Shown: one piece after another, positions 7,276-43,867 of the stretch
Layout of the letters: each line of letters begins with the position of its first letter
Numbering within the stretch: position 1 is the first letter of the stretch
NCBI GenBank assembly: GCA_014384025.1
Contig: JACNGQ010000233.1
Span: forward strand, 1-57,127
DNA length: 57,127 nt
Origin: Planctomycetota bacterium
GTDB taxonomy: Bacteria; Planctomycetota; Phycisphaerae; Sedimentisphaerales; Anaerobacaceae
Direction of reading: 5' to 3'
Position numbers and translations under genes: made by a program
Notes under the pieces: model-generated
The model's database searches: none
What the model was told of the DNA's origin: nothing
Seen by the model: the letters and a program-made list of their open reading frames with translations, nothing else

Positions 7276-7383
7276 ACAAAATATTTACGATTTTATTGTG
7301 GATTTGGCAATTCGTTAAAATTGTAAGATCTCGCAGGATTGTTAAGTCATATTTGCGTGAAATCCCGGTTGAATAATTGTTGA

Positions 7384-7755: not shown

Positions 7756-7885
7756 GAAGAAAAGATATGAAAACGTATGATACATGCTTGATTTGATACT
7801 TTGGGGGTGGAAATACTTTTGAACACTTGCAGCAGAAGCGATGTAAATTGTAGTTGTATGAAAAACTATTTGAAAGGAGTATGAC

Positions 7886-9424: not shown

Positions 9425-9453
9425 TTGACATTTGAGAAAAAGTGGCATATAAG
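9425..9453 (+). promoter_or_regulatory. Sigma70-type promoter
   Basis: TTGACA at 9425-9430 and TATAAG at 9448-9453 are separated by exactly 17 bases. Transcription would start near 9460, giving a leader of about 37 bases with a GGAGGA ribosome site before the ATG at 9497. Confidence 0.65.
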
Positions 9454-9496
9454 CCGTTTATTAAAATTCACTATCTTTCTTTTTTGGAGGAATACT

Positions 9497-19783: not shown

Positions 19784-19842
19784 TAAGTGCTTTTTGCCGA
19801 TGAAACTTCTGAGTTATTAAATTGAAATGGGAGAACGTCGGC

Positions 19843-20929
19843 ATGAAGCCACAAAGATTTATTAGAACTCTGACCAAAACAGAGTGTCAGGAAGTTGAAG
19901 AAGTGTACCGCCGTGGGCCGAATAATCGTGTTCGCAAGCGAGCACACGCAATTCGCCTCAGCGCAATGGGCTATGCGGTTACCCAGATTGCAGAAATACT
20001 CGGATGCAACCGACAAAGTATTCACAATTGGTTCGATTTGTTCGAGGCACAAGGCTACCAGGGTATTTACGACAAACCTCGTTCCGGAAGGCCGGTTATT
20101 GCCACGGTCGATTATCGAACACGACTTATAGAAGCGATCAAGACCAATCCGAGAAAGATGGGCTATCCTTTTACTGTTTGGACCCTTACACGGATACGGG
20201 CACACATGACCAGAGAGATGAAAATTTTGTTGAGCGAATCGAGAGTCCGTCAAATTATGAAAGAAGAAGGACTCGTTTTCAAACGTCCCAAACATACACT
20301 TGCCCAAAAACGCGACAAGGATGCTTTTGCAGAGGTTCGAGACATCCTGGAGCAAGTAAAAAAAAGTCCATGGAACCCGGTTCCGGTATAGAACTTTTAT
20401 TCCTTGATTAAAGTGAGATTCATTTATATCCGCATTTGGTTCGAATGTGGATGCCCAGAGGCTGGTGTGTTGAAGTGCCGGCACCTGGCAAAAATCAAAA
20501 GATTCCCATATATGGGGCACTGAATTATCGCACGAATAAGGTCTCTTACCAAGTTGGCTATGGGAAAAATGCGGTAGAGTTTCTTGGTTTTCTCGCGCAA
20601 TTAGCCTGTGAGTATCATGAAAAGCATTGTGTTGTTGTACTTGATAACGCCAGCTACCATACCGCCTGTGTGGTTCAGAAATTTTGGATGAGTTGTCTTG
20701 TCGTTTTCAGGTAATTTGATTGCCACCGTACAGTCCTGAACTAAATGATATCGAACATATCTGGAAGTATGTCAAAGGAGCAAGTCTGGCAAATTTTGAT
20801 TTTGGTGATAGCAATTCTCTTCGTCAGGCAATCGCCGAAGTTTTTGACGGACTTAATAGTAATCCGGAAAGCGATTTGACGCTTCGCTTCCGTGACCCGT
20901 TGTCTAAAAATTTACTCAAGGTAGCTTAG
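19843..20929 (+). pseudogene. IS630-family transposase with two frameshifts and a stop
   Basis: Three consecutive frames make up one transposase. Frame one from ATG 19843 has the HTH (TQIAEILGCNRQSIHNWF) and the linker with KPRSGRPV. It breaks near 20370-20390. Frame two gives ELLFLD, the first catalytic Asp, then hits a TAA at 20409-20411 where a Glu normally follows, and continues through VVVLDNASYHTA, the second Asp. It breaks again near 20700. Frame three gives LPPYSPELNDIEHIW, with the catalytic Glu. All DDE residues are still recognisable, so the inactivation is recent. Confidence 0.85.
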
Positions 20930-22099: not shown

Positions 22100-23263
22100 T
22101 CAGAATGTTGGGCCGATTCGATTGACTGAAAACTCTCTGCAATTGTTGAGCTCGGAGGCAGTTTGCCTTCCGTTACACACGTCGATTATAAACTCGAATA
22201 TCTCATCAGCTACGCCATCGACCGGAGTGCCTCCGATTATCTTGCCGGCATCGATATCGATGAAGTTGCTCATTCGCTGATACATTTTCGTATTGGAAGA
22301 GATTTTTATCACCGGCGCAACCGGATTGCCGACAGGTGTTCCCGTACCTGTGGTAAAGAGTATCAGATTTGCACCGCCGGCAGCCATTCCAGTAACCGAT
22401 TCGGGGTCGTTTCCGGGCGTGTCCATCACAACAAGCCCTTTACACAATGGTTGCCGAGAGTACTCGACGAATTCATTAATATTGGAATGGCCGCCTTTGA
22501 TAATACAACCCAAAGATTTTTCCTCAATGGTACTGAGCCCTGCCTTGATGTTGCCAGGAGCCGGATTACAGCCTCGCGGGTCACCACCGGCATCTTTTAT
22601 CATTTGAACATAGGCCTTAATTCGGGCAAGAATTCTTAGCTTTACAGCCTCATCCGGAATTCTGGATTCCAGGCTCGCTTCTGCTCCGATCATCTCAGGT
22701 ATTTCGGAGAGAACCACTGTAGCACCAAGCTCCACAAGCTTATCACTTACTAATCCAACAGCGGGATTGGCGGTGATCCCGGAAAATGGGTCCGAGCCGC
22801 CGCACTCAAGACCTATTGTCAGACTGCTGATATCAAAGTCGCTTCGCTGCTGCTTCGAGACGAATCCTTTTATCTGCCGAAGATAATCGCAAGCAATATC
22901 CATAATTTTCCGTACTTCGCCGATTTCCTGAATCACAATCGTTTTAACAAGTTTTTCACCGCTATCGATCCGCGATGCAATGCTATTTACATTTACACTC
23001 TCGCAACCAAGCCCAACCAGCAAGACACCTCCGACATTCGGATTGTTACAAGTGCCGCTAAGTGTTCTGAGCACTTGTTCTGTGTCGGCGCCCATGTGCG
23101 TGCAGCCGTGTTGATGTGTAATTGGGATAATACCGGTATCGATCCTGGCTATTTGCTCCACAATGAAATTCGCACACGAAACGCTGGACATTACGATAAT
23201 GTGGTTACGTATGCCAAAAAGGTTCTCCCTTCTCAGATATCCTTCGATTTTGATTGTGGACAT
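22100..23263 (-). CDS. UxaA-family dehydratase, large (C-terminal) subunit
   Basis: A 387-residue protein matching the C-terminal domain of altronate/galactarate dehydratases (UxaA/GarD), iron-dependent enzymes that remove water from aldonates or aldarates. Visible signatures are THQHGCTHMGAD, GVLLVGLGCES, LECGGSDPFSGITANPAVG and GNIKAGLSTIEEKSLGC. The ATG at 23263 lies 20 bases after the stop of the small subunit gene, with GGGGAGATGAA as ribosome site; upstream in-frame codons overlap the neighbour and are not used. Together with the SAF-domain subunit it makes one enzyme, probably turning altronate into KDG. Last gene of the operon. Confidence 0.85.
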   Translation of the reverse strand: MSTIKIEGYLRRENLFGIRNHIIVMSSVSCANFIVEQIARIDTGIIPITHQHGCTHMGADTEQVLRTLSGTCNNPNVGGVLLVGLGCESVNVNSIASRIDSGEKLVKTIVIQEIGEVRKIMDIACDYLRQIKGFVSKQQRSDFDISSLTIGLECGGSDPFSGITANPAVGLVSDKLVELGATVVLSEIPEMIGAEASLESRIPDEAVKLRILARIKAYVQMIKDAGGDPRGCNPAPGNIKAGLSTIEEKSLGCIIKGGHSNINEFVEYSRQPLCKGLVVMDTPGNDPESVTGMAAGGANLILFTTGTGTPVGNPVAPVIKISSNTKMYQRMSNFIDIDAGKIIGGTPVDGVADEIFEFIIDVCNGRQTASELNNCREFSVNRIGPTF

Positions 23264-23283
23264 ACGTTCATCTCCCCACAGAA

Positions 23284-23571
23284 CTATACTAAGCTGATTA
23301 AATTGTGTATATGAACACAATCGCCTTTTTTAATATCTGCAATAGCAAGACCTATTACATACCCATATTTATATACCGGCCCTGACTTGCTGACGTCCGA
23401 AAGTGCTATCTTAAAACCTGCTCTGATATCTTCAGGTACGGTGATGGTAGTGGCGCTTTCGCCGGAGCTGAATATATAATCTCCCGCCGGCAAATCAATC
23501 AGCGCTGTCGCTACGTTATCGTTTTCGCAGAGAATAACTGCGTAATCTGCGAGATTTCGACATTGGCTCAT
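23284..23571 (-). CDS. UxaA-family dehydratase, small SAF-domain subunit
   Basis: A 95-residue SAF-domain protein equal to the N-terminal domain of UxaA/GarD. The end, YKYGYVIGLAIADIKKGDCV then HIHNL, is the conserved SAF block. In E. coli the SAF and catalytic domains are one polypeptide; here they are two adjacent genes, as in many anaerobes. It lies 40 bases after the glucarate-dehydratase-type gene and 20 before the large subunit gene, so equal co-expression is expected. Confidence 0.8.
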   Translation of the reverse strand: MSQCRNLADYAVILCENDNVATALIDLPAGDYIFSSGESATTITVPEDIRAGFKIALSDVSKSGPVYKYGYVIGLAIADIKKGDCVHIHNLISLV

Positions 23572-23611
23572 TTATTCCTCCAAAGCAGCGTGAAATCACA
23601 GTCTTTATCAT

Positions 23612-24916
23612 TTACCATCGCGGAAGTATCCGTTCCCAACTTGGATCTATGTGTTTGCGCATTTGAGCTTCATCATCCCTTTTACGATAGGGACATTTCC
23701 GGTAGCGCTCACGTCCTTTTGCCAATTGGTCGTAGTCCAATTCCACTCCTAATCCGGGCTTATCAGGAATCATAACACAACCGGCCACAATCGGTACGCG
23801 GCCTCCGGCGACCACTTCATCTTTTTCCGACTGCCATGGATAATGGGTGTCACAAGCATAGGTAAGATGCGGAGTTGCCGCCGCCACATGCGCCATGGCC
23901 ATCAAAGATACACCCAAATGACTGTTGGAATGCATCGACAACCCGATACCGAATACCTTACATAGATTTGCCAGATGCCGGACCTGTCGCATTCCTCCCC
24001 AATAGTGATGGTCACAAAGAATAACTTGTACGGCATCAAGTTCCAGGGCTCGTGGTATGTCTGCAAACGATGTAACTACCACATTAGTTGCCAGGGGTGT
24101 CTTGATATCCTCTGCCATGAGCCGTTTTCTCACTTCCGCCATATTCTCAAGACCTGCAGTCGGATCTTCCAAATATCCTCCACATGACAGCTCTTTTGCC
24201 AATTCTTTACCCACACGCACCGAGGTATTAACCGTCCATGCCGAGTTCGGATCGATACGTAGAGGTATTTCGGCCCCAAGCTCCTGGTAGAGTAGCCTTA
24301 TGGCTTCAATTTCTATATCGGGCTCAAGCACACCACCTTTGAACTTAATGGAGCTGAATCCGTATTTAGCAATCATTTGTTTGACTTCCCGGACAAGTGT
24401 ATCCGGAGTCATAACTTCGCCATATTCGTCCTCGCGCAGATCATCACCTTCTCCACCGCCACCGGCGTGTTTGAAAAATGGATAGGCAGAGAAAGCGACC
24501 CGATCCCGTACACGACCACCGATGAGATCGCATACTGGCTGGCTGACAGATTTACCTATCAAGTCAAGGCAGGCTACTTCGAGAGCTGCGTACGTTCGAG
24601 TTGTTTGATCAAGAGGATTCTCGCCGGGTACAAGGTAGGTCTGCGAGCGTTCGATTCCGGAGCCCTCACCTTCCACCATCGAAGAAAGCAAGCCAGTCAG
24701 CCGGTAAGGATTTTGACCAATAATCTTTTGGCGGTCCGCCTCGAGTGTGCGTGCAGGTATTTCTCCACCATATGTTTCAGAGATTCCAATTATGCCATCT
24801 TCACTTTCTATTTCCAGAATCGTCCGCAGGGCATAGGGTGCATGAAGGCCATAGGAGCTGCGTAAAGGGGGGTCTGCGATAGCGATGGAGTGAACACGCA
24901 TGTCGGTAATTTTCAT
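23612..24916 (-). CDS. Glucarate dehydratase-type enolase-superfamily enzyme
   Basis: A 434-residue cytosolic enzyme of the GlucD group, which dehydrates D-glucarate (or L-idarate) to 5-keto-4-deoxyglucarate. All expected active-site residues are visible: the KxK pair Lys191/Lys193 in IKFKGG, metal ligands Asp222 (RIDPNSAW), Glu250 (YLEDPT) and Asn278 (LATN), Asp302 and the base His329 (GLSMHSNSHLG). The start ATG has AAGGA before it. Length fits E. coli GudD (about 446). It sits between a GntP permease gene and the UxaA subunits; the HpcH aldolase of the same operon and GarR at 42977 would complete the route to glycerate. Related sugar-acid dehydratases of this group can differ in substrate. 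Confidence 0.85.
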   Translation of the reverse strand: MKITDMRVHSIAIADPPLRSSYGLHAPYALRTILEIESEDGIIGISETYGGEIPARTLEADRQKIIGQNPYRLTGLLSSMVEGEGSGIERSQTYLVPGENPLDQTTRTYAALEVACLDLIGKSVSQPVCDLIGGRVRDRVAFSAYPFFKHAGGGGEGDDLREDEYGEVMTPDTLVREVKQMIAKYGFSSIKFKGGVLEPDIEIEAIRLLYQELGAEIPLRIDPNSAWTVNTSVRVGKELAKELSCGGYLEDPTAGLENMAEVRKRLMAEDIKTPLATNVVVTSFADIPRALELDAVQVILCDHHYWGGMRQVRHLANLCKVFGIGLSMHSNSHLGVSLMAMAHVAAATPHLTYACDTHYPWQSEKDEVVAGGRVPIVAGCVMIPDKPGLGVELDYDQLAKGRERYRKCPYRKRDDEAQMRKHIDPSWERILPRW

Positions 24917-24948
24917 TATGAATCCTTACTTTATGTTTATCGATATTG

Positions 24949-26394
24949 TTAAACCAATGGGAAAAGACGAGCTAGAATCATAATCACAAACAGACCAACG
25001 ATTCCCATTAGCGTCATCATCGTCGAGCAGGTTTTCAACGTTTCGGCCTCCGTCATACCAGACATCTTGCATATAACCCAGAAACCACTGTCATTCATCC
25101 ATGGAATGAGTTTTGACCCACATCCGATGACCAGTGCCAGATAAACCGGATGGAATCCCAACTGTCCGCTACCGGCCAGACCACCGAGAATGCCAACCGC
25201 TGTTATCATGGCAACCGTTGCGGAACCCTGGGCCGTTCGGACAATAGCTGTTACACAAAATGCCAGAGGAAGTACTGCGATGTGGTAAGAAGCAGCCAGC
25301 TCCTGAATGCGATAACCAATACCGGTCTGCTGCAGGATTCCACCAAAGGCACCGCCGGCAGAGGTTATCAAAATGATTAAGCCGCCGCTCGAGAGTGCAT
25401 TCTGAAGGAACATTGTGATATTCATCTTACTGCCTCGATTCCACCACGCATAAGTCAATAAAGCAATTCCAGCCGAGATGGTCAGGGCCACGTTGGGATT
25501 GCCGACATTGTCAATCAACACTGCAATGCTTTGCCACAATGGGGCCGTTGTTATGGAAGATTGTGTCTTCTGCAAGGACTTGAAAAACGTCCCTCCGGCA
25601 ATCAAAATAACGGGCAGGATGATGGGCAGCATCGAAAGCCAAAACGGCGGCAGGATTGCTTCATCTTTTTCTGTCATGCTTTTAAGGTCGGCGGCAGAAG
25701 TATCGGCCGTGTCCCTGACGGGGATTGGCCATTTTCGATTCGCCCATAGCGCATAAAGATAACCGGCGCTTACTGTAAATAAGCCGACTACGATTCCCCC
25801 TATGATCATCAGTCCCAAGTTTACAGAAAGTGCACCTGCAACGAACAAAGGGCCCGGCGTCGGCGGCACAAGAGAATGGGTCATTGTCGCCCCTGCGACA
25901 ATCGACATTATGTAGAGACCATAATTGCGACCTGTCCTGACTCCCATCGCCTTGCCCAGGGGCATCATCAGATAAAAAACCGTGTCGAAAAAGACAGGCA
26001 TCCCGAGCAGGAAGCCGCTGCTTAAAAATGCGTACGACGTGCGTTGTTCCCCCAGCCATTTTACAAGCGAACGGACAATTCTCTCGGCCGCACCGCTTTC
26101 AAGCAAAAACTTTCCGATGATGGAAGCCATTGCAATTAGAATTCCGATCTTAGTGCATGTGCGGCCGAATCCATGAGCCACCCTTTCCCCCACGGAAGAT
26201 TCCACCAGAGCGGTTTTTTCCTTAACTGTCATCTGTTTTTGATTGGCGTACCTCTCCAACCCCGCTGATGTTGTAAGACTTCCGACAATCAGTGCTCCAA
26301 GTATCAACGCCAGAAATGCGTGCAAACGCAGGATCAATATCCCACCCAACACAACAATCATGCCAATCAGCAGAAGCCACAGGGGGTCGATCAT
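24949..26394 (-). CDS. GntP-family sugar-acid:proton symporter
   Basis: A 481-residue inner-membrane permease of the gluconate (GntP) family with about 12-14 hydrophobic segments. Typical family blocks are SGFLLGMPVFFDTVFYL, VAGATMTHSLVPPTPGP and GCGSKLIPWMNDSGFW. GntP carriers import gluconate or related aldonates and aldarates with protons. The ATG at 26394 overlaps the stop of the preceding dehydratase gene (ATGA), so the two are translationally coupled and the permease probably imports that enzyme's substrate. A second GntP gene lies at 41582. Confidence 0.9.
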   Translation of the reverse strand: MIDPLWLLLIGMIVVLGGILILRLHAFLALILGALIVGSLTTSAGLERYANQKQMTVKEKTALVESSVGERVAHGFGRTCTKIGILIAMASIIGKFLLESGAAERIVRSLVKWLGEQRTSYAFLSSGFLLGMPVFFDTVFYLMMPLGKAMGVRTGRNYGLYIMSIVAGATMTHSLVPPTPGPLFVAGALSVNLGLMIIGGIVVGLFTVSAGYLYALWANRKWPIPVRDTADTSAADLKSMTEKDEAILPPFWLSMLPIILPVILIAGGTFFKSLQKTQSSITTAPLWQSIAVLIDNVGNPNVALTISAGIALLTYAWWNRGSKMNITMFLQNALSSGGLIILITSAGGAFGGILQQTGIGYRIQELAASYHIAVLPLAFCVTAIVRTAQGSATVAMITAVGILGGLAGSGQLGFHPVYLALVIGCGSKLIPWMNDSGFWVICKMSGMTEAETLKTCSTMMTLMGIVGLFVIMILARLFPLV

Positions 26395-27620
26395 GACGTG
26401 TTTCCTTTCACCCATTTGACACTGTGATCCCCAGTCACGGCAATAGTCTCGGCCGTAGAACTCAACTTAAAAATAGACCAGGGACCTTGAATAAAAGGAT
26501 ATTTTTCGAAGACAGTTTCGTTAATTTCAACTCCCATGCCATGCCCATCCGGCAGAACAAGATACCCGTTCTCAATTTCCAGAGCCTCGGATAATATCTC
26601 GTCAGCCAGCGGAAAGGAATACATCACCGGATGTTCCCTGTGCGAGTAACATGGGTATTCGAGCCACTCAACAACATTGTCGGGCCAGCAAACACCCAAC
26701 TGCCCGGCCGTTAATACTTCAAGGGTCGTGCCCCAGCTATGAAATGCAAATCGCAGCCCCTGTTTGCTGACACCTTCAAAGATTTCCTGGGCACTCGAGA
26801 AACCTCCCTGGCAAAGAACATCCATCTGAACATAATCAACCGCTTCTGAGTTAATCAGATCTTGAAAGCCCAAATCATCCGGTTCGTGTTCACCTGAAGC
26901 CAGTTTCACATCCGATTGGGCGTGCAATTTTCTGTACGCAGCATGGTCATCCGGCGGTAAAGGTTCTTCCAGCCAGACAGGATGATACTCCTTCATATCA
27001 TGAGCCAATTTCGCAATAGTCTCGAAGGAATAATTTTTGTCCCCCATCCTCCACCACGTATGAGCATCGACCATGAGTCCGGCATCAGGGCCTACAGCCT
27101 CCCGCATCATAGCAACAGTCTTGAGGTCCTTCTCCGGTCCGTTACCAGGGCGCATTTTGTACGCCGGAAATCCCATGTCTATGACAGCCTGTGCTTCTTC
27201 GGCATACTCCTCAGGTTCCATGTACATACCAGCACTGCCATACAGTTTGATTCTGTCACGCTGCCGGCCGCCAAGCAAAGCCGACAGTGTACATCCTTCA
27301 TACTTCGCCACAAGATCGAGTAACGCTATTTCAACAGCCTTATAGATTTTCATGACTTCCAGGTTTGCTGAAAAGCAAAATTCCTGCCAGAGCCGAGGGT
27401 CCTTGCCTATCAGAAAAGGTGCGATTGTCTGCTTTATTTCTCTATCTGCTCGCTCGTGAGCAGGGCCTGGAGCATATCCCTTCAAGCCAGAATCGGTGGT
27501 TATTCGAATCAACATTGCGTCTCTTTTTAAAATTGTCCGTTCTCCGGCCCAAAACTGCAATTTGACAGGCTCAGGCATTTGATAGGACATAAGAAAAGAG
27601 TCAACCTGCGTAATTTTCAA
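26391..27620 (-). CDS. Mandelate racemase/muconate lactonising-type sugar-acid dehydratase
   Basis: A 409-residue enolase-superfamily enzyme. Candidate active-site residues are Lys155 in AYKMRPGN (a KxR pair, not KxK), metal ligands Asp185 (VDAHTWW), Glu219 (WLEEPL) and Glu244 (SGEHE), Asp267 and the base His294 (FAFHSWGTT). This pattern fits acid-sugar dehydratases of the mandelate racemase subgroup, but the substrate cannot be named. It starts with TTG at 27620, behind a GAGGAAA box at 9 nt. It is coupled to the GntP permease by an ATGA overlap and follows the aldolase gene by 46 bases. A different enzyme from the GlucD-type one in the same operon, so the operon handles at least two acids. 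Confidence 0.8.
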   Translation of the reverse strand: MKITQVDSFLMSYQMPEPVKLQFWAGERTILKRDAMLIRITTDSGLKGYAPGPAHERADREIKQTIAPFLIGKDPRLWQEFCFSANLEVMKIYKAVEIALLDLVAKYEGCTLSALLGGRQRDRIKLYGSAGMYMEPEEYAEEAQAVIDMGFPAYKMRPGNGPEKDLKTVAMMREAVGPDAGLMVDAHTWWRMGDKNYSFETIAKLAHDMKEYHPVWLEEPLPPDDHAAYRKLHAQSDVKLASGEHEPDDLGFQDLINSEAVDYVQMDVLCQGGFSSAQEIFEGVSKQGLRFAFHSWGTTLEVLTAGQLGVCWPDNVVEWLEYPCYSHREHPVMYSFPLADEILSEALEIENGYLVLPDGHGMGVEINETVFEKYPFIQGPWSIFKLSSTAETIAVTGDHSVKWVKGNTS

Positions 27621-27666
27621 AGTTTGTTTCCTCGCTAATCCTCAAGATTAGATTTATATATGATTT

Positions 27667-28449
27667 CTATTTCCCTGTTTCGTGAGAGTTTTTCAGCTCA
27701 TTTAAACTCTCTGCCATTTTGCGGGCTCCAATCTGGACAAAACTCGAATCCGAACTACAGGCAATAAAACGAAATCCTAATTCATAGTACTTCTTAAATT
27801 CTTCGGGATTCTGTAGCAAGATACCGGCCGCCTTACCTTTTTTTGCGGCCGCATCAGCAGTGGCTTTAAGAGCATCCATAAATCTCGGATGGTCGGGCTG
27901 CCCGAAAACACCCAACGCAATTGAGAGATCCATCGGTCCAACAAACAGCACATCGATTTCGTCGATTGCCGCGACCGAATCCAGACTGTTTAGTATTTCT
28001 TCCGTTTCGATTTGGACGATGCAGACGAGGTTCTTCTTTTGATTGGCATAATATTCACTAAAATCAGAACCGAAATTTGTCGCCCTTACCATTCGAGCGA
28101 CACCTCTTATCCCATCCGGTGGATATCGGATTGCTTTTGCCGCCTGCCGGGCTTCCTCCAGGGTATTGATTCGAGGACACATAATACCTTCTGCGCCTAA
28201 ATCCAGAATCCGATGGAAACGCTGTCTCTGATAAGATTCAACCCTGACAAAGGTTGCAGCAGGCGTGTGCTCCAATGCCTGCAACTGCTGTAATATCTGA
28301 GCTTCAGAACCCGACCCATGTTCAATATCTATGAGGACCCAATCAAATCCCGACATACCTACTATTTCAGATGTGAGCGATGACCCAAGATTTAACCAGC
28401 ATCCAATCAAAGTTTCGCCGTTGTATATACGCGCCTTGATGTTCTTCAT
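27667..28449 (-). CDS. HpcH/HpaI-type class II aldolase (GarL-like)
   Basis: A 260-residue metal-dependent aldolase. Compared with E. coli GarL the key residues are present: base His44 (DIEHG), Arg69 (FVRVES), and metal ligands Glu148 (VQIETEE) and Asp174 (GPMDLS). GarL splits 5-keto-4-deoxyglucarate (and 2-keto-3-deoxyglucarate) into pyruvate and tartronate semialdehyde, exactly the step needed after the glucarate dehydratase of this operon and before GarR. The start ATG has GGAGATG just upstream. The gene lies 95 bases after the exported protein gene and 46 before the dehydratase. Other members of the family use HHED or KDR-type acids, so GarL activity is inferred from context. Confidence 0.85.
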   Translation of the reverse strand: MKNIKARIYNGETLIGCWLNLGSSLTSEIVGMSGFDWVLIDIEHGSGSEAQILQQLQALEHTPAATFVRVESYQRQRFHRILDLGAEGIMCPRINTLEEARQAAKAIRYPPDGIRGVARMVRATNFGSDFSEYYANQKKNLVCIVQIETEEILNSLDSVAAIDEIDVLFVGPMDLSIALGVFGQPDHPRFMDALKATADAAAKKGKAAGILLQNPEEFKKYYELGFRFIACSSDSSFVQIGARKMAESLNELKNSHETGK

Positions 28450-28544
28450 TGCATCTCCAGTTCTGGTCTATTGGAATAGTGATTGAGCAAAAGCCGCCCT
28501 GTATTATATAGAACCGCAAGACATATCGGCTTAGCCGCATTGTT

Positions 28545-29567
28545 TTATGCCATCCATGTTCGAGCGCGACCTTTGCGCTTAATCTCAGCGATGATGTCAC
28601 GGGTAATAAGCGCGTCTTCACGAACCTGGAAGTCAAACATGCCAACATTGGCGAAATCCGCTCCATTTTCAAATGCAAATCTGAAGCCCTTTTGCGGGCG
28701 TATGGCTCCGGCCGCTAAAACCTTAAAGGCAATCCAGGGTTTCCTGACGTTTTTCATGAACCCGATTGTCTCCTCAGGCCTGGAACACCACATATTATCG
28801 TGAGGCGGCAATCCACGCTTGGGACGTTCGGGCTTTGGTGTGGCTGACCAATAATCTCCACTGTGCAGTGTCTTCATATAGAAGTCCACATTAACGCATG
28901 CCTTTTCCAGGGCCATTGGCACTTCAAGAGAATGGCAGGCACAACCGGCAATCAGCCCATTTTTCTTGATAAAATCAACAGCTTTGGCCAGCAGATCCAC
29001 GCGTTTATTCCTGACCCAGTTGTCACCTATGCCCCCATGTATAAAGGCACCGACTGCACCATTATCGATTGCCGTTTGAATCGAACCGTAAAGGTCATAG
29101 GTTTTAGGATAAGTTTGGGCAATCCACTGAATCTTTCCGCCCCATTCATTACGATACCGGTTATACACTCGAATAGTTGGGTCCTCACCGAAGGCGTAGG
29201 GGCTGTTGACAGGCCCTATCATCGTGTTGATACCGCATTCTTCACATATTTGCCATGTCTCAATAATCTTTTTGTCTGTGAAGTAGTGCCTCATCAACGA
29301 GGCAACGTAAATCAAATCACGGTCATGGGCACTGCCGATTATTAAATTACCTCCGCAAATCAGACGGCTGATGTTGATATGCTTAATCCTGCCCATCGGC
29401 ATATCTATATCTGTGCTTTTCTGTAGGGATGGTGTTTGTTCATCTGTTCCCTGAGCGGTTGATTTGGCTGAAAGAACATGTTCATTATGACCTGCCGCCA
29501 ATGACAGGCCGGCAGAAGCTGCTAAAGACCTCTTTATAAACAGACGGCGATTCACGGTTTTGGCCAT
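28545..29567 (-). CDS. Exported TIM-barrel-like protein of unknown function, first gene of the aldarate operon
   Basis: The ATG at 29567 gives a 340-residue protein with a twin-arginine-like leader (NRRLFIKRSLAASAGLSLAA). The mature part begins INISRLICGGNLIIGSAHDR and then alternates strands and helices (GINTMIGPVNSPY, AIDNGAVGAFIHGGIGD, WIAFKVLAAGAIRP), as in an (alpha/beta)8 barrel; distant aldo/keto-reductase resemblance is possible but no catalytic tetrad is evident. Similar exported proteins occur in planctomycetes without a function. A strong promoter at 29602-29630 lies just upstream, making this the leader gene of the minus-strand operon. An exported protein heading a catabolic operon suggests an early, extracytoplasmic step. 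Confidence 0.6.
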   Translation of the reverse strand: MAKTVNRRLFIKRSLAASAGLSLAAGHNEHVLSAKSTAQGTDEQTPSLQKSTDIDMPMGRIKHINISRLICGGNLIIGSAHDRDLIYVASLMRHYFTDKKIIETWQICEECGINTMIGPVNSPYAFGEDPTIRVYNRYRNEWGGKIQWIAQTYPKTYDLYGSIQTAIDNGAVGAFIHGGIGDNWVRNKRVDLLAKAVDFIKKNGLIAGCACHSLEVPMALEKACVNVDFYMKTLHSGDYWSATPKPERPKRGLPPHDNMWCSRPEETIGFMKNVRKPWIAFKVLAAGAIRPQKGFRFAFENGADFANVGMFDFQVREDALITRDIIAEIKRKGRARTWMA

Positions 29568-29601
29568 AAAACAATCCTGTGGTTGCTTTACATCAATGAT
29601 G

Positions 29602-29630
29602 AGTGTATCACGGTAGCTAATATCTGTCAA
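29602..29630 (-). promoter_or_regulatory. Sigma70-type promoter of the aldarate operon
   Basis: On the minus strand TTGACA (29630-29625) and TACACT (29607-29602) are exactly 17 bases apart, with a start of transcription about 28 bases before the ATG at 29567. It separates the operon below from larA and its upstream genes. Confidence 0.65.
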
Positions 29631-29684
29631 CTATGAACGCATGAAATTTAGCTGAAAGACTCGTTCGTGCAATGTTATATCATC

Positions 29685-30968
29685 TCACATTAGGCTGTCA
29701 TGAGATATATAGGGAATTGTCTGAGGTCCTTCAGGTAGAATACAAATGGAAGCATCCCGCCCATATTTGTGCAGAAGCTCTTCGACTGTTTCTTCTACTT
29801 TTGAACATGGTTTGAGAAGAGCACGCTCAATTTGCTCATCGCTGAGATTGTGACTGTAGAAATAAACATCCGCTTTCTGTAAGATTAAACCATGAAGCTG
29901 TACCTGCCACATATCGTGTCTGAAGTAACCTTCCTGGCGGATTGTTCTCAGCAGAGATTCATAGCTGTCGGCCTCAGACAGTAACTTGCTATATTCTCCA
30001 TGGTCGGGGATTCCATCCCAGCAGTCAGCCACCACTACAATGCTGCCGCCTTTCTTAACGATCCGTGCGGCCGCACTCATACCTTTAATAGTCTGGTACA
30101 GATTCAAGTCCAATGGATACCCTGAATTGCTGGTAATAACAATGTCGTACGGTTTCTCCACGGCAGCCATTGCATTTTTCTTTACATAGGCGCAACCCTG
30201 TTCGTGTGCTTTGTAAAAGTCACCGGAAAAGATGGCTGTAATTTCCTTTTTTCTGTTGAGCGCCACGTTCAATAAAAAACTCGGCGGCACCAGTGACGCG
30301 GCTTGTCGTATCTCTTCGTATATGGGATTGCCGGCTGTCACACCCCATGTCGCCTTCGGGTGATCTACGTTTTTCACACTATGGTTTCTAAGTACAGTTT
30401 CCAGCAAAGCCAGCCCGGGCATGACAGCCTTGCCGCCACCCGAAAAACCAGCGAAGATATGCGGCTCTATGAAACCGGTCACAATTCGAGTATCACAGTC
30501 CAGATATTCTTTATGAAGCCGGATTTCATTTCCGCTACTCGTAGCCCCAACAGTTTTGTGTGAAGGCTGATCCAGGGCATCATTCTGGATAATCCGATAC
30601 CTCCTCAATACATCATCTCCCAACATCTCCCGAAGCTCCGCTTCCGTATTTGCTCGATGGGTGCCGGTAGCGTTAAAGAACAATATCCGTTCGTCGGGAA
30701 TATTACCAAGCTCCTGTAAAAGAATCGGTAAGATAATTTGATAAGGTGTCGGGCGGGTGATGTCATTGAAAACAATACCTACTGTGCTCGATTGTCTGAC
30801 TAAATCTCGCAGGGGCTTAGAATCTATCGGTCTAAGTAATGCATCTTCTATTGCAGCAGCCTGGTCCGGCAGAGCTTCTCTATACATGGGCTCCACGACA
30901 TCGACGTTCAGAGAATCGGAGAGGTTAATATTCAGCCCTGTCTTGCCATAATCCAACTTTATTTTCAT
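29685..30968 (-). CDS. larA: LarA-type nickel-pincer racemase/epimerase
   Basis: A 427-residue protein aligning well with lactate racemase LarA, which uses a covalently bound nickel-pincer nucleotide to swap stereochemistry at a 2-hydroxyacid carbon. Counterparts of the known residues are present: Arg72 (DITRPTP), His104 (GTHR), His170 and cofactor-binding Lys180 (PHIFAGFSGGGK), His196 (LRNHS), Gln292 and Lys295 (YQTIKG). Spacing from the Lactobacillus plantarum enzyme is off by only 3-4 residues. The cofactor makers LarB, LarC and LarE are not in the window. Its position 12 bases after a dehydrogenase and within a uronate/aldarate locus suggests a sugar-acid 2-epimerase and not lactate racemase; this is inference. 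Confidence 0.85.
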   Translation of the reverse strand: MKIKLDYGKTGLNINLSDSLNVDVVEPMYREALPDQAAAIEDALLRPIDSKPLRDLVRQSSTVGIVFNDITRPTPYQIILPILLQELGNIPDERILFFNATGTHRANTEAELREMLGDDVLRRYRIIQNDALDQPSHKTVGATSSGNEIRLHKEYLDCDTRIVTGFIEPHIFAGFSGGGKAVMPGLALLETVLRNHSVKNVDHPKATWGVTAGNPIYEEIRQAASLVPPSFLLNVALNRKKEITAIFSGDFYKAHEQGCAYVKKNAMAAVEKPYDIVITSNSGYPLDLNLYQTIKGMSAAARIVKKGGSIVVVADCWDGIPDHGEYSKLLSEADSYESLLRTIRQEGYFRHDMWQVQLHGLILQKADVYFYSHNLSDEQIERALLKPCSKVEETVEELLHKYGRDASICILPEGPQTIPYISHDSLM

Positions 30969-30980
30969 AGCTTCAGATTC

Positions 30981-32252
30981 CTATTTCACGTTCTTAATCA
31001 GTGCAAGGTTTCCGTCCCGTGCCGCTTCTAATATCGGTCCCATATAGTCATCTATCATCTCAACCGTAAGCGGCACAGGCATATTCTGGAGCTTCATCTT
31101 TAGCTGAGGATTTTTGGCGGCTGTCAGGGCTCGGTCGATATGCTGCCGGCTGAATCCATCAACATCGCTGAGCCGTATAGGATAGCTTATCCTTCGAGCC
31201 AGCTCAAACATACCCTCGGCCACAGCAACCCCAAGGTCCCTTCCTTTAAGGGATTCAATATCGGCGTCTATGAGCGCTGCCTGCTGATAGATTTTACCGA
31301 TAACGCGCAACGAATGTTCAATGGCCGGGGCAAAAAAGACTGTGTAGTACGGATTCATAATAGCGCAGGCCCGTCCGTGCGGAAGAATATCCACCAAGGA
31401 GAAGCTGGTCAAGTGTCCCCCATTGGTTCCGCCTATCATAATGGAATATCCGCCCAAATCTGTGGCCAGGCAGAGTGCTTCCCGTGCTTCTTTGTCCTTA
31501 GGATTGTCGATTGCCAGCGGCAGGTAATTGACCGCCAAATAAATGCAGGCGGAGGCCACTTCTTCGATCTTGTCGTAGCCGGGCTTGCCAACAGCTCCGT
31601 AAAGAACCTCCAGCGAGTGCGAGATACCGTCGAGTGCTCCATCGGCGGTCAGGTCCAGGGGTGTACTGTATGTTACCTTATAGTCGAAGACTGGAAAAGC
31701 AGGCACAATTGCATCATCCACAATCAACTTCTTCTGGCCCGTTGAGACTTCTGTGATGTTCGAGTACTTTGTCAGGTGGGCCGCAGAACTGGCAACAGTC
31801 TGAATAGCCATGTGTGTAGTAAGAGACTTACCCCTGTCATGCAATGCTTTTGTGACAAGCCCCATCCCAAAATATGCGTCGATATCACCGTCGAGTGTAC
31901 GAAGAACATCAGCGGCCTTTACAGCATCGATTGTGCTGCCACCGCCGAAACTTATCACCACATCGGCCTTAATCTCTCTCAGGCTGTCCGCAATTCGAAA
32001 CAGGTCTTCTCTCGGACAGTTCGGTCTGGCACCTCTGATTTCTGCGACAAGATTCACTGCGGACTTAGCCAAAGAGTCGCGAATAATCCCCACATAATCA
32101 TCGCTACCCTTAAATGAGTCACGAACCAGCGCCGCGTTCTTACCTGCAGAAGCAACCACTTGCCCTACTTTCGAAAGGACATCCGTGCCGAACAGATATG
32201 AATTTCCTTTGAACTCGTGCAACAAAGCACGTGCTTTCTCAAAATCGGTCAT
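30981..32252 (-). CDS. Iron-containing alcohol dehydrogenase
   Basis: A 423-residue group III alcohol dehydrogenase. The nucleotide loop is SFGGGSTIDA (about 101-110) and the metal ligands are Asp208 and His212 in DGISHSLE, His280 in GGTNGGHLTSF and His292 in DILPHGR. Members reduce aldehydes or ketones, or oxidise secondary alcohols, with NAD(P). The start has AGAGGAA at good distance. It lies 40 bases after the SDR and 12 bases before larA, so these four genes probably form a second transcription unit headed by uxaE. In this setting the substrate may be a ketouronate or aldonate, replacing UxaB or UxuB, which are absent. Confidence 0.85.
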   Translation of the reverse strand: MTDFEKARALLHEFKGNSYLFGTDVLSKVGQVVASAGKNAALVRDSFKGSDDYVGIIRDSLAKSAVNLVAEIRGARPNCPREDLFRIADSLREIKADVVISFGGGSTIDAVKAADVLRTLDGDIDAYFGMGLVTKALHDRGKSLTTHMAIQTVASSAAHLTKYSNITEVSTGQKKLIVDDAIVPAFPVFDYKVTYSTPLDLTADGALDGISHSLEVLYGAVGKPGYDKIEEVASACIYLAVNYLPLAIDNPKDKEAREALCLATDLGGYSIMIGGTNGGHLTSFSLVDILPHGRACAIMNPYYTVFFAPAIEHSLRVIGKIYQQAALIDADIESLKGRDLGVAVAEGMFELARRISYPIRLSDVDGFSRQHIDRALTAAKNPQLKMKLQNMPVPLTVEMIDDYMGPILEAARDGNLALIKNVK

Positions 32253-32292
32253 GTTTTGGTTCCTCTATACTTGTATCTCAAGCCTCATTTAG

Positions 32293-33114
32293 TCAATTCA
32301 TTTCAAATCCGCCGTCAATATTCAGCGTCTGTCCGGTCATATAATCCGAATCCGGCGAACATAAAAAAGCAACAACACCAGCCACTTCCTCAGGACTGCC
32401 AGCCCTTTTTAATGCAGTTCGTTCAATGAATGATTTCATTGACTCACCCGGCGCAAGGCCGGATATACGTCCCCTATCCTGGTCGATTTGTTCCCACATT
32501 GGTGTGGGAATGACACCGGGGCATACGGCATTGACATTGATATTATACTTAGCAAAGGCCAGAGCGGCAGATTGTGTGATGCTGATAATCCCAGCCTTGC
32601 TCGCCGCATAAGGCACTTGCTCGGCTCTGCCGTGCCGTCCGGAGATTGAGGAAAAGTTCACAATCTTCCCGTAACTGCGATTTGCGTGCCCTGTTGATTT
32701 GACTTGCTCTGGAACTTGCTTTATCATCTGGCGGCCAACGGCCTGAATAATGAAAGTCGTCCCTTTCAGGTTGGTATCAACAACGCGGTCCCATTCCTGC
32801 TCGGTTAGCTCCAAAAAGGGCCCCGTTTGTGCCACACCTGCGGCATTCACGAGAATGTCGATTCTGCCGAATTCAGCCACAGCACGATCAATCATCGGCT
32901 GAATCTCAGCAATATTGGCAATGTCAATCTGACAGGCCAATGCGCGGCGATTTAACACCCGAATTTCATCAGCGGTCTGTTCAGCAGTCTTTGGATTCAT
33001 GTCCGCAACAACGACGTTTGCACCTTCCTCGGTCAGGCGCAACGCCACAGCCTTGCCGATTCCCTGGCCGGCACCGGTAACGATTGCTGTTTTTTCACTT
33101 AAACGCTGCTCCAT
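32293..33114 (-). CDS. SDR-family oxidoreductase
   Basis: A 273-residue classical short-chain dehydrogenase. TGAGQGIG (about 13-20) binds NAD(P), ADMN after strand 2 suggests NAD preference, NAAG follows, and the catalytic Ser156, Tyr169 and Lys173 (YAASK) are in place. The C-terminal SDYMTGQTLNIDGG is the usual tetramer end. It lies 84 bases after uxaE and 40 before the iron dehydrogenase. A ketouronate, deoxyketo-uronate (KduD/DEH reductase) or aldonate substrate is likely from context but not shown by sequence. Confidence 0.85.
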   Translation of the reverse strand: MEQRLSEKTAIVTGAGQGIGKAVALRLTEEGANVVVADMNPKTAEQTADEIRVLNRRALACQIDIANIAEIQPMIDRAVAEFGRIDILVNAAGVAQTGPFLELTEQEWDRVVDTNLKGTTFIIQAVGRQMIKQVPEQVKSTGHANRSYGKIVNFSSISGRHGRAEQVPYAASKAGIISITQSAALAFAKYNINVNAVCPGVIPTPMWEQIDQDRGRISGLAPGESMKSFIERTALKRAGSPEEVAGVVAFLCSPDSDYMTGQTLNIDGGFEMN

Positions 33115-33198
33115 TGCATTATTTCCTAATTACGTACCATATCATACGAAAAGCAAACCGGTTACTCAAAACATCTCTGAATTCCTTAAGAGACTTCT

Positions 33199-34935
33199 TT
33201 ATGTTCGATGAAAGACGTCCGTCGCCACTTCACAAAGGTAGCTGCAAATGCGATTCTGATATTCTCTATAGAAATCTGCCGACAGGTCATAAAACTTCTC
33301 GCGGTGAATAAACTGTCCTTTTTGGTTACGTTTGCCCACAGAAGCAAAATTGTAATAGTGAAAAACCGTATGATCAGGTGAACGTTCCCGATTATCACCT
33401 GTCTCATACCGTTCTAAACATTGTGCGGCAAAATCTGAACCGGCTGCAGCTTCACGGCGCGCATAGTCAAGTGTGTCATCCCACCAAAAACGAAACCTCT
33501 CGGATTCTACATCCTTCATCGTCTCAGCGAATATCACCTGCGAGAAAGGAGATATCTTAAAGTGTATATTACCTTGTGCAGCTCGGCCGATGGCCCGCCG
33601 GGTCGCCGGTTTAAGATCATCGCCCGAATGACAATCCAGCATAAATCCAAACTCACAAGCGATTTCATAATGCCCCCGAATGCGTTTCTCTAAAGCGACA
33701 AGGCCGTCCTGCCCTCTGTAGTCCGAACCTTTTTCTACTCCAAAATTTGGAGCTATATGTGTCACGGGTATCCCCCGCCTTTGCAGTTCAAGTATTAGAA
33801 ACATCAACTCTCTCTCTGTTGTCAAGCAGGTAAATGCATCTACACCCGAAGGCGTCTCATCAATGCTAAGCTCGAGATCGAAAGAGACCTCATTCCTTAC
33901 CGCTCTGATATGATTGGATAGTTCCTCAACTGCGTTCAGGGCAGTCCAGTATTTACCTACCAACCGTCCGACAGATGCTTTATCCAACTGGTACTGTTGC
34001 CCGGGTAAACACCTCTGACTGTGATAAGCAACGACTTCTTTTTGTAGCTTCGGCTGACAAATATGATTGGCAAGATAGTCCTCGGCTGCGGTTTTAGAGC
34101 TAACCTTCATTGCATCATAATCCAGGATATCAGACACATCCAGAGTAAAAAAAGTGTAACGGCGAGCTGCTTCTATAATGCGTTTGGCACGAATGATATC
34201 ATCGGCACTGCGCCTTACGGTTATGTGGTCTGCATCGGCACCGAACGCCGGAGAAGAAGAGGCCTTGAGTGCTTCCAGCACACCGGCCACCCAGAGCCCT
34301 TCGAAAGTGCTGCCGGTGTGCCCTTCCTCGACCCGGCCAAAATTGGCCAAGTAATTAAAGCGTGGCGGCCGGCAAGCCAGTATGTCCTGAAGCAGATTTA
34401 CTTCACGAACTGAGTTCTGAATCGGGTTGGCCTGAAAATTATATTTGTTCATCGCCTGCCACACACCCTGCCAGGCGGCAGTTGACATTCTCGAACCAAC
34501 ACCTAATCTTGGTACGGCGCCGAGTGCTTTAGGGCCCCTTTTCGGCCTTATCAGAGTGACATAGCGGTCAATAGTCTCGGCATCTGTACGATACGCGGCC
34601 AGATGAGTTCCATTTTCAAGAGAGCGGGTGCCAATCGGCTCTCCCATGATGGTATCTTTACTATCGGTTCCAAGCTGAATAAATACCTGCTGACCATCCA
34701 CAAGTCCGGCGAGGAAGAACATACTTTTTCTATATTCGGCACAAGACCCGGCATATACAACACAACGTTTATCAACAGGCAATGGGTACCCTTCCCTGGC
34801 TGCTTGTAACACAGAGTTCCAGTGGGATTCGCCCACAGCCGAAACTGTGCTCCAGGCACTTGCGGCTTCCCAGGTCGCAGTGTCCAATATCGCAGGATTC
34901 TTCCGTGGATCTATTTCTATTTTCTCGAATCTCAT
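33199..34935 (-). CDS. uxaE: Tagaturonate/fructuronate epimerase UxaE
   Basis: A 578-residue protein resembling UxaE (Thermotoga TM0440 group), which interconverts D-tagaturonate and D-fructuronate and so joins galacturonate and glucuronate catabolism. Recognisable blocks are VPRLGVGSRMSTAAW, NFGRVEEGHTG, LELSIDETPSGVDAFT, HIAPNFGVEKGSDYRGQD and LDCHSGDDLKPATR, with histidine and acid residues fit to bind a metal. The ATG at 34935 is preferred to one at 34950 because AGGTG lies before it. The next genes (SDR, iron dehydrogenase, LarA) follow on the same strand. A palindrome at 35018-35039 lies in its upstream region. Confidence 0.8.
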   Translation of the reverse strand: MRFEKIEIDPRKNPAILDTATWEAASAWSTVSAVGESHWNSVLQAAREGYPLPVDKRCVVYAGSCAEYRKSMFFLAGLVDGQQVFIQLGTDSKDTIMGEPIGTRSLENGTHLAAYRTDAETIDRYVTLIRPKRGPKALGAVPRLGVGSRMSTAAWQGVWQAMNKYNFQANPIQNSVREVNLLQDILACRPPRFNYLANFGRVEEGHTGSTFEGLWVAGVLEALKASSSPAFGADADHITVRRSADDIIRAKRIIEAARRYTFFTLDVSDILDYDAMKVSSKTAAEDYLANHICQPKLQKEVVAYHSQRCLPGQQYQLDKASVGRLVGKYWTALNAVEELSNHIRAVRNEVSFDLELSIDETPSGVDAFTCLTTERELMFLILELQRRGIPVTHIAPNFGVEKGSDYRGQDGLVALEKRIRGHYEIACEFGFMLDCHSGDDLKPATRRAIGRAAQGNIHFKISPFSQVIFAETMKDVESERFRFWWDDTLDYARREAAAGSDFAAQCLERYETGDNRERSPDHTVFHYYNFASVGKRNQKGQFIHREKFYDLSADFYREYQNRICSYLCEVATDVFHRT

Positions 34936-35017
34936 TTCGACACCTATCATAGAGCAAATCCAAATGAATACATATAGAAAATAAAAAAGTGTTGCTCAAA
35001 ACATAAACATAAACTAT

Positions 35018-35153: not shown

Positions 35154-36758
35154 ATGCCAAAAGAGACTGAGTCAAAAGCTAACAATGCTGGTAATAGCGA
35201 GCAATCCTCATCCGTAGATGCTTCACTTATACAGGAACCGCCGCGGACGCTGGGTGCGACGCTTCTTCGGCTTGGACCGGGTATGATAATCGCCGGCTCA
35301 ATAGTCGGGTCGGGCGAATTAATTGCCACGACTAAAGCCGGAGCTGAGGCGGGTTTCTGGCTGCTTTGGCTTATTATCCTCGGTTGTGTAATCAAGGTTT
35401 CTACGCAGATAGAATTCGGTCGATACACCATCACATGGAGCCAGACACCGCTCAAGGCATTGAATAACTTACCGGGACCGCGACTGAAAGTAAACTGGAT
35501 CCTCTGGTACTGGTTAATTATGACTGTGCTGGTGGTCTCCCAACAAGGTGGTATTGTAGGTGGTGTCGGACAGACATTGGCCATCAGTAAACCGTTAACA
35601 AGCTATGGCAGACAATATAACCGCTTGCAAAATGAGCTGGTCAGAACCAGAGTTGAGTTAAAGGTAGCTCAGGCACAAAGTGCAGAAAGTACCATTATTC
35701 AAGACTTGCAACAGAAGATCACCTCATTAACCTCTGAAACAGCTGAGCTTAGAGAGCCGACGGACACATATATCTGGGCTACGATTCTGGCAATTATGAC
35801 TTCTGTGTTGCTGTATGTAGGCCGATATGGATTGATCCAGTTTGTTGCAACAGTATTAGTTGTAACATTCACAATCGTAACGATAATCACTTTAATCGTT
35901 TTGCAGACCAAACCGGAATGGGCTGTTACCGGCGGTGACTTAGCCAGTGGTCTGAGTTTTCGTCTACCACCTGCTGCTGAAGGTACAAACATTAAGCCAA
36001 TCGCCACAGCGCTGGCGGCATTCGGTATAATAGGGGTCGGTTCTTTGGAACTGATGATGTACCCATACTGGTGTCTGGAAAAGGGCTATGCAAAGTATAC
36101 CGGTCCCAGAGATAGCACGGCACAATGGTTAAAGCGTGCCCGCGGCTGGCTGCATGTACTGCATATCGACGCATGGACATCGATGGTGGTCTATACTTTA
36201 GCTACGGTCGCCTTCTACCTGCTCGGAGCCGCCGTGCTTGGCAGAACGGCCCTTAATCCAAGCGGCAAACATATGGTACGTACGCTGGCGGCGATGTATG
36301 TGCCTGTCTTCGGCCCCTGGGCCGATAGAGTATTTCTATCCGGGGCCTTTGCAGTACTTTACTCTACATTCCTTGTCGCCGCAGCAGGTAATGCCAGAAT
36401 GGTAGCCGATGCTTTGGGTCTGTTCGGAATCACTGACGGCTCCGAACAGGCACGATTAAAATGGACACGCATTGTTTGCGCCATTTGGCCGCTGGTTGCA
36501 CTGATGTTATATATAGGTGTGCGTGCACCAACGAAAATGATTTTGGCTTGCGGAACCGCCCAGGCAATAATGTTGCCGATGCTGGGAGCGGCGGTTTTGT
36601 ATTTTCGCTACAAACGTAGTGATGAGAACCTGCGGCCGGGCCGGATTTGGAGTGCTATGCTATGGCTCTCTCTTGCAGGTTTTGTAATCATCGCCGGCTG
36701 GTCGCTGCGTTTTGTAATTATCGCCGGCTGGTCACTGCTAAGCAAATTTTTCGGATAG
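35154..36758 (+). CDS. Divergent Nramp-like membrane transporter
   Basis: A 534-residue inner-membrane protein related to Nramp (SLC11) carriers, with about 11 hydrophobic segments. The first segment, GPGMIIAGSIVGSGELIATT, has GSGE where metal-transporting Nramps have DPGN, and the sixth (ELMMYPYWC) lacks the metal-binding methionine motif MPH. Metal transport as in MntH is thus doubtful. A charged helix (about 155-200, NRLQNELVRTRVELKVAQAQ and SLTSETAELREP) interrupts the transmembrane core as a coiled-coil insert. The C-terminus has an in-frame 30-base tandem repeat. It stands divergent to uxaE and may import an organic anion; that is inference. Confidence 0.7.
   Translation: MPKETESKANNAGNSEQSSSVDASLIQEPPRTLGATLLRLGPGMIIAGSIVGSGELIATTKAGAEAGFWLLWLIILGCVIKVSTQIEFGRYTITWSQTPLKALNNLPGPRLKVNWILWYWLIMTVLVVSQQGGIVGGVGQTLAISKPLTSYGRQYNRLQNELVRTRVELKVAQAQSAESTIIQDLQQKITSLTSETAELREPTDTYIWATILAIMTSVLLYVGRYGLIQFVATVLVVTFTIVTIITLIVLQTKPEWAVTGGDLASGLSFRLPPAAEGTNIKPIATALAAFGIIGVGSLELMMYPYWCLEKGYAKYTGPRDSTAQWLKRARGWLHVLHIDAWTSMVVYTLATVAFYLLGAAVLGRTALNPSGKHMVRTLAAMYVPVFGPWADRVFLSGAFAVLYSTFLVAAAGNARMVADALGLFGITDGSEQARLKWTRIVCAIWPLVALMLYIGVRAPTKMILACGTAQAIMLPMLGAAVLYFRYKRSDENLRPGRIWSAMLWLSLAGFVIIAGWSLRFVIIAGWSLLSKFFG
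36681..36740 (+). repeat. 30-bp tandem duplication at the transporter's C-terminus
   Basis: 36681-36710 and 36711-36740 are near-identical (three differing bases by eye) and encode FVIIAGWSLR and FVIIAGWSLL in series, adding ten residues to the last membrane segment. Confidence 0.9.
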
Positions 36759-42976: not shown

Positions 42977-43867
42977 CTATTGTTGTCTTACCTGGACTTT
43001 AGCGAGTTTCTCGTAGAACTGAATAATCCCGCCATGGTCGTCTGAGCCCTTGCCGTCCACCTTCAATGCCTGCATCACTTCCATTACAGCGCTGGATAGT
43101 GGAACTGGGACTCCTACTTCATGGGCGGTATCCAATGCGTTGGCCAGATCCTTAATGTGCAACTCTATACGGAATCCAGGTTTGAAGTTGCCTTTGAGCA
43201 CGAGCGGCATCTTTGCATCCAGGACCGTACTGCCGGCAAGTCCCCCGCGAATCGCCTGGAAGACCTTTTCTGCATTGACGCCTGCTTTGGCTGCCAACAC
43301 CATTGCCTCCGACATTGCGGCAATATTCAGTGCCACGATAATCTGGTTGGCTAATTTTGTCATATTGCCGCTTCCAATATCGCCCACCAGTGTCACGGAA
43401 GCCCCCATTACACCCAGAATGTCTTTTACCTCATCGAATGTCTCTTGCGGTCCACCGACCATGATTGCAAGCGTACCTTCTTTGGCTTTGGGCTCACCTC
43501 CGCTCACCGGAGCATCGAGCATAACAACTCCTTTTTCCTTTGCTCTTTCTGCCACCTCCTTGCTCGCTAAAGGTGCTATGGAACTCATATCGATAAGGAT
43601 AGTGCCCGGCTTTGCCCCCTCCAGAACACCGTTTTTACCCAGCACAGCGTCCTTGACATCCGGGGAATTGGGCAGCATTGTTATTACAATCTCGCTCTTT
43701 TCGGCAACATCTTTGCTCGATGAGCCTGCCTTCGCTCCGGCTGCGACTGCTTCTTCGACCTTCCCGGGTACAATGTCATAAACAGTGAGTGAGTATCCCT
43801 TTTTGAGTAGATTTCCGGCCATAGGATTGCCCATTATTCCCAATCCAATAAAACCAATCTTCTTCAT
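42977..43867 (-). CDS. garR: Tartronate semialdehyde reductase (2-hydroxy-3-oxopropionate reductase)
   Basis: A 296-residue beta-hydroxyacid dehydrogenase. GLGIMGNPMAGNL at the N-terminus binds NAD(H), DAPVSGGE (about 118-125) binds substrate, and the catalytic Lys171 sits in GNMTKLANQ. In E. coli GarR reduces tartronate semialdehyde to D-glycerate, the step that follows the GarL aldolase. With the aldolase at 27667 and the dehydratase at 23612 it completes a glucarate/galactarate route. A close family relative is 3-hydroxyisobutyrate dehydrogenase, but DAPVSGGEPKAKEGTL and the context favour GarR. AAAGG lies 7 nt before the ATG. The transaldolase-family gene is 85 bases upstream on the same strand. 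Confidence 0.85.
   Translation of the reverse strand: MKKIGFIGLGIMGNPMAGNLLKKGYSLTVYDIVPGKVEEAVAAGAKAGSSSKDVAEKSEIVITMLPNSPDVKDAVLGKNGVLEGAKPGTILIDMSSIAPLASKEVAERAKEKGVVMLDAPVSGGEPKAKEGTLAIMVGGPQETFDEVKDILGVMGASVTLVGDIGSGNMTKLANQIIVALNIAAMSEAMVLAAKAGVNAEKVFQAIRGGLAGSTVLDAKMPLVLKGNFKPGFRIELHIKDLANALDTAHEVGVPVPLSSAVMEVMQALKVDGKGSDDHGGIIQFYEKLAKVQVRQQ

Follow-up and report, generated by a model that had tools for sequence, protein, structure and literature searches.

A LarA-type racemase gene within a uronate/aldarate operon of a planctomycete: a putative glycerate racemase in a genome in which larC was not found

The DNA analysed here, referred to as the window, is a stretch of 57,127 nucleotides from a Planctomycetota bacterium of the class Phycisphaerae (assembly GCA_014384025.1, contig JACNGQ010000233.1), whose genome has a size of 6.69 Mb and is 95.4% complete. 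It contains a run of 11 minus-strand open reading frames (ORFs; positions 22100–34950), separated by intergenic gaps of −37 to 95 bases and arranged in the order uxaE-SDR-FeADH-larA-orf-garL-MLE-gntP-glucD-uxaA. This run is a uronate/aldarate operon, as had been recognised when the DNA was read from sequence alone. It begins with a divergent UxaE-like tagaturonate/fructuronate epimerase (33199–34950; PF16257; PDB 9kcs and 9lhu) and a short-chain-type (SDR) oxidoreductase of the polyol/uronate type (32293–33114; Pfam, NCBIfam), the order UxaE-SDR-(FeADH)-LarA being conserved. These are followed by an iron-containing alcohol dehydrogenase (Fe-ADH; 30981–32252), for which a Pfam Fe-ADH match and a PDB match were obtained and no NCBIfam equivalog cut-off was reached; the family assignment should be taken as a loose one. 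The larA homologue (29685–30968) starts 12 bases past the stop of the Fe-ADH gene, exactly the spacing first given for the pair. On the basis of Pfam, NCBIfam, pocket residues, tree and structural model, it is annotated as a 2-hydroxyacid racemase of the LAR/SAR type dependent on the nickel-pincer nucleotide (NPN), putatively acting on glycerate and also on lactate.

Downstream of larA lies orf361 (28545–29630), which has an apparent Tat-type leader (by eye), is conserved at the same place in the related genome G001 and gave no match in searches of Pfam, NCBIfam and the PDB. The remainder of the operon encodes an HpcH/HpaI aldolase closest to the 5-keto-4-deoxyglucarate aldolase GarL (27667–28449; Pfam, NCBIfam, PDB), an enolase-superfamily (MR/MLE) sugar-acid dehydratase or cycloisomerase (26391–27620), a GntP-family sugar-acid permease (24949–26415) and a glucarate-dehydratase-like enolase-superfamily enzyme (23612–24916), the last three assigned by Pfam and NCBIfam. 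At the end of the operon, a SAF domain ORF (23284–23571) and the adjoining altronate/galactarate dehydratase ORF (22100–23320; Pfam, NCBIfam) together make up a split dehydratase of the UxaA/GarD type, the former encoding its N-terminal half and the latter its C-terminal part. The split of this dehydratase (22100–23571) recurs in G001 (locus L050).

About 8 kb from the operon, garR forms a separate unit (42977–43867, minus strand). Its product, tartronate semialdehyde (2-hydroxy-3-oxopropionate) reductase, exceeds the cut-offs of both NF008592 (487 bits; cut-off 397) and TIGR01505 (409 bits; cut-off 341). The operon together with garR represents a glucarate/galactarate-type route with glycerate as its end, and profile searches of the locus identified no genes for lactate use (lactate permease, lactate dehydrogenase) around larA. 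Divergent from the operon, an Nramp-like transporter gene (35154–36758, plus strand) is a recurrent neighbour of larA loci. Inspection by eye indicates that its product has IVGSGE and MYPYW where DPGN and MPH would normally stand; a role as nickel importer is disfavoured, since the usual metal-site motifs are apparently missing. On the other side of the operon, a helix-turn-helix ORF (19822–20391) is similar to the N-terminal part of a transposase.

The larA ORF runs from ATG to TGA and encodes 427 amino acids. Its product matches Lar_N with 207.7 bits and LarA_C with 100.5 bits and passes the lactate racemase equivalog model NF033504 (487.4 bits; cut-off 460). The six residues named in the sequence-only reading (His104, His170, Lys180, His196, Gln292, Lys295) are indeed all kept, as are Asp69, Arg72 and Tyr291; in an alignment of 20 homologues, D69, R72, H104, H170, K180, H196, Y291 and K295 are invariant. 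Likewise, the residues of the LarA superfamily (D72, R75, H108, H174, K184, H200 and K298 in the numbering of LarALp) are all found in the protein, together with both domains (Lar_N and LarA_C) and the LarA fold in an AlphaFold model. Comparison with the copy from the same genus (89% amino acid identity) yielded a dN of 0.058 against a dS of 0.43, which marks larA as a conserved gene under purifying selection and, with a dN/dS of about 0.14, rules out a pseudogene or a chance ORF. Thus, larA is a real, intact gene. The earlier view that it encodes a complete nickel-pincer-type 2-hydroxyacid racemase or epimerase whose substrate is probably tied to the surrounding pathway holds, and the protein is predicted to be loaded with NPN.

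Within the LarA superfamily, selectivity is associated with positions 175, 176, 358 and 359 of LarALp, which are occupied by F, F, W and E/Q in lactate racemases and by E, V, A and H in gluconate epimerases (PMC11770544), the pocket signature of GntE being described as E, V/S, A, H (PMC11770544, PMC7583248). In the window LarA, these positions read I171-F172-W354-Q355 (I-F-W-Q); Ile thus stands at position 175 in place of the Phe of the LAR signature, and the GntE signature is absent. Within its clade, I-F-W-Q is found in the window and in G001 and F-F-W-Q elsewhere; full-length relatives of at least 45% identity have F-F-W-Q nearly throughout, while the same-genus copy shares the Ile. In agreement with the pocket, the hexonate epimerase model NF052594 was not reached (20.1 bits; cut-off 500), and the tree places the window clade near LarALp/LarATt and LarAIp and apart from the malate-type and GntE-type paralogues, with some deep forks remaining open. 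Structural matches of the AlphaFold model rank in the same way, with TM scores of 0.83 for LarAIp and LarALp, 0.71 for Mar2 and 0.59 for GntE2. The model is of modest quality (pLDDT 70), and since its active-site loops fall below a pLDDT of 50, it was used for the fold and not for conclusions on the pocket. Family models and tree assign the window LarA to the LAR/SAR branch and not to the GntE branch, and its pocket is close to the LAR signature.

The gene settings of close homologues were read by placing reference proteins on 13 loci with a LarA of at least 60% identity, comprising 12 genomes (the host included) and the fragment L072, which were collected in family and class searches. Three settings emerged. 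In the first, found in the window, G001, G380 and G422, the order is UxaE-SDR-FeADH-LarA; with G407, where Fe-ADH, LarA and glycerate kinase are consecutive, and the outgroup G239, where the order is FeADH-LarA, pairing of Fe-ADH and larA extends to five genomes besides the host. In the second, present in 6 of the 13 loci (G366, G436, G434, G295, G407 and L072), larA stands immediately before a PF02595 glycerate kinase gene; in G366 and G295 the order is UxaE-SDR-LarA-glycerate kinase, and GarR is also present. In the third, confined to G002, G022 and G311, larA comes after a YdiJ-type dehydrogenase gene that itself follows one for a lactate permease (LctP-YdiJ-LarA), and the LarA proteins have the four-residue pocket of the window copy except at position 175. 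Since the third setting is nested inside the first on the tree, the link to Fe-ADH looks older than that to lactate genes.

Adjacency of larA and the kinase gene is hardly expected by chance, the rough estimate being 4 in 10,000 per independent lineage (one gene among some 5,000), with G366, G436, G434 and G295 counted once because they belong to one genus. A kinase of PF02595, the glycerate kinase family covered by the search, is encoded in all 13 genomes tested, apparently once in each, with split HMM pieces lying side by side in three. In the five whole genomes of the second setting, the kinase gene next to larA is apparently the sole PF02595 gene, and the host genome has its one such gene on contig C426, not beside larA. 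Two of the lactate-permease-type larA loci (L049 in G022, 5854–10409; L108 in G311, 13485–14603) lie beside genes that are glycine-cleavage-like by sequence, the latter locus also carrying a class V aminotransferase gene; these glycine-cleavage-like neighbours may hint at the use of glycerate or glycolate over lactate there.

The reading which we favour, at somewhat better than even chances, is that the window LarA is a small-pocket NPN racemase of the LAR branch whose main reaction is the interconversion of L- and D-glycerate and which accepts lactate as its second substrate. We infer the substrate, the direction of racemisation and the role of the Fe-ADH from gene context and protein sequence. 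In the proposed route, the GarD/GlucD-type dehydratases would form 5-keto-4-deoxyglucarate, which the GarL-type aldolase would cleave to pyruvate and tartronate semialdehyde. An aldehyde-reducing enzyme, putatively the neighbouring Fe-ADH besides GarR, would then produce glycerate. Because reduction of the aldehyde leaves C2 untouched, part of this glycerate may have the wrong hand (L-glycerate), and LarA would convert it to D-glycerate for a D-specific glycerate kinase. At the active site, one of His104 and His170 would take the proton of the C2 hydroxyl group, while the C2 hydride would pass to the NPN cofactor held by Lys180 and His196 and then back onto the opposite face, in a proton-coupled hydride transfer. 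The six kinase-adjacent loci and the GarR above its cut-offs in the window speak for glycerate, whereas the lack of an adjacent glycerate kinase gene in the host genome, the Ile at position 175 and the missing larC speak against it. The three close orthologues in the lactate-permease setting also count against it, so that lactate is plausible as a second or even the main substrate. Moreover, GarR of the usual type yields D-glycerate directly; hence, a racemase would be needed only if L-glycerate arises from some source, which is assumed here. The biochemical precedent is divided as well: LarAH43, the published LAR enzyme with Gln at the fourth pocket residue, favours glycerate over lactate (114,000 versus 83,000 M-1 s-1; PMC11770544), while LarAIp, despite its Trp-Gln pair, prefers lactate and 2-hydroxybutyrate, followed by glycerate (PMC11851776), so that the Gln by itself is no proof of glycerate.

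Rather unlikely, in our judgement, is a plain lactate racemase, which would equilibrate L- and D-lactate that the operon makes or imports, for instance via lactaldehyde from the HpaI-type aldolase. Such a role would agree with the NF033504 score, with the position of the clade near LarALp/LarATt and LarAIp and with the three close orthologues in lctP-ydiJ-larA loci. The last also qualify the earlier statement that the gene is not in a lactate context, which is correct for the window locus and fails for these orthologues. However, the operon is of the aldarate type with GarL and GarR, neither a lactate permease nor a lactate dehydrogenase turned up in the surroundings of larA, the close relatives at six loci pair larA with glycerate kinase, and the lactate-permease context is nested on the tree inside the apparently older Fe-ADH pairing. 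Compared with the LAR group itself (LarALp, LarAH43), the window copy shares the fold, the catalytic His pair, the NPN ligands and the Trp of the pocket (in the case of LarAH43 also the Gln), but differs in the replacement of Phe175 by Ile, in its uronate/aldarate operon, in the lack of adjacent larB, larC and larE and in a genome where larC was not found.

Epimerisation of a sugar acid at C2, by which, according to the sequence-only reading, LarA might extend what the locus can use, now appears improbable if a C5 or C6 sugar acid (mannonate/gluconate or an aldarate) is meant. Its model is the Thermotoga maritima arrangement uxaE-uxaD-gntE-gntK. The order UxaE-SDR-LarA-kinase in relatives of the window resembles uxaRED-gntEK of that organism (PMC3750489), LarAH10 epimerises gluconate/mannonate and is no typical GntE (PMC11770544), and GntE1 has been suggested to act on aldarates (PMC7583248). 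GntE2 of T. maritima (LarAH20, PDB 4NAR; gnd-uxaRED-gntEK) likewise is a LarA-family protein encoded in a hexuronate locus with UxaE and an oxidoreductase, and even its locus kinase has a counterpart among the relatives. Yet pocket, subgroup and kinase differ: the bulky Trp354 with Gln355 in a pocket close to LAR and far from GntE lends poor support to such an activity, identity to GntE2 is 16% in the structural alignment, the kinase in the relatives is a glycerate kinase and not a gluconate kinase, and the phylogeny proposed as a check on the idea groups the window LarA with lactate racemases. What the relatives' contexts point to is glycerate, formally a C3 aldonate, and in some cases lactate.

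In addition, the host has a better candidate for this activity. A GntE-type LarA with an E-V loop, whose best PDB match is GntE2 (4NAR; E 2e-58), is encoded on contig C337 (L056, 1666–2934), in a stretch that also carries genes for 6-phosphogluconate dehydrogenase (gnd) and glucuronate isomerase (uxaC) and closely resembles the gnd-uxaRED-gntEK operon of T. maritima (PMC3750489); if the host epimerises a hexonate at C2, this copy is the likelier enzyme. The hexonate reading for the window LarA is thus demoted by the family models and the tree as well as by the pocket residues and the paralogues. A third copy, on contig C250 (L055, 12773–13984), is malate-racemase-like, reaches no model cut-off, has the pocket Y-G-V-S and carries Asn where Asp72 is usual; its gene adjoins a zinc-type dehydrogenase gene and an Nramp-like gene, an arrangement repeated in G005 (L061).

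A broad short-chain 2-hydroxyacid racemase without a single pathway substrate, resembling LarAIp (LarAH2; SAR) of the planctomycete Isosphaera pallida, is very doubtful, since tight and conserved co-location with glycerate kinase and Fe-ADH or with lactate permease suggests defined roles, even though LarAIp is the closest solved enzyme (PDB 9eia/9eid; 36% identity in the structural alignment), shares the Trp-Gln pair (its loop is Leu-Met instead of Ile-Phe), and the Ile that replaces Phe at position 175 may give the window enzyme a wider pocket.

Supply of the cofactor presents a puzzle of its own. The sequence-only reading had called for a search for larB, larC and larE in the same genome; LarB (295 bits) and LarE (320 bits) were found, neither encoded beside the window larA, whereas a profile search of the host genome for the nickel insertase LarC (PF01969) gave no match. 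The host LarE has the CXXC...C pattern that characterises the Fe-S type of this enzyme (PMC9283937), and its gene lies among genes that are thiazole-synthesis-like, NifS-like and NifU-like by sequence. LarC was equally absent from all six genomes of the genus and from 12 of 12 genomes with a close larA, while it is present in 17 of 89 family genomes and in 6 of 14 control genomes; most of the family thus lacks it, even though genes for LarB, LarE and LarA-family proteins are common there. Loss to an assembly gap is unlikely, given that the 12 draft genomes are 78–95% complete and other family members give matches above 350 bits. Among the 41 genomes (own and relatives) searched for all four parts (LarA, LarB, LarC, LarE), 16 combine a LarA-family protein, LarB and LarE with no LarC. 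The literature searches made found no paper describing this combination, which is no proof of novelty. As a tentative and still less than even proposition, NPN might be made without LarC, another enzyme or unassisted nickel insertion replacing the CTP-dependent cyclometallase, and might supply a glycerate racemase devoted to the breakdown of aldarates.

The nearest known pathway is the gud/gar system of Escherichia coli (gudD/garD-garL-garR-garK), on which the proposed pathway logic is based and which has in common with the window the dehydratases, GarL, GarR, a glycerate kinase and the last intermediates, tartronate semialdehyde and glycerate; its five core genes include no LarA (PMC11775122), whereas the window operon incorporates both larA and the Fe-ADH gene. 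The missing larC raises the question of how nickel enters the cofactor where LarA, LarB and LarE are kept. LarA enzymes are known to racemise glycerate in vitro, a reaction whose physiological significance its finders left open (PMC11770544); a conserved linkage of Fe-ADH, LarA and glycerate kinase in sugar-acid operons would give this reaction a natural role.
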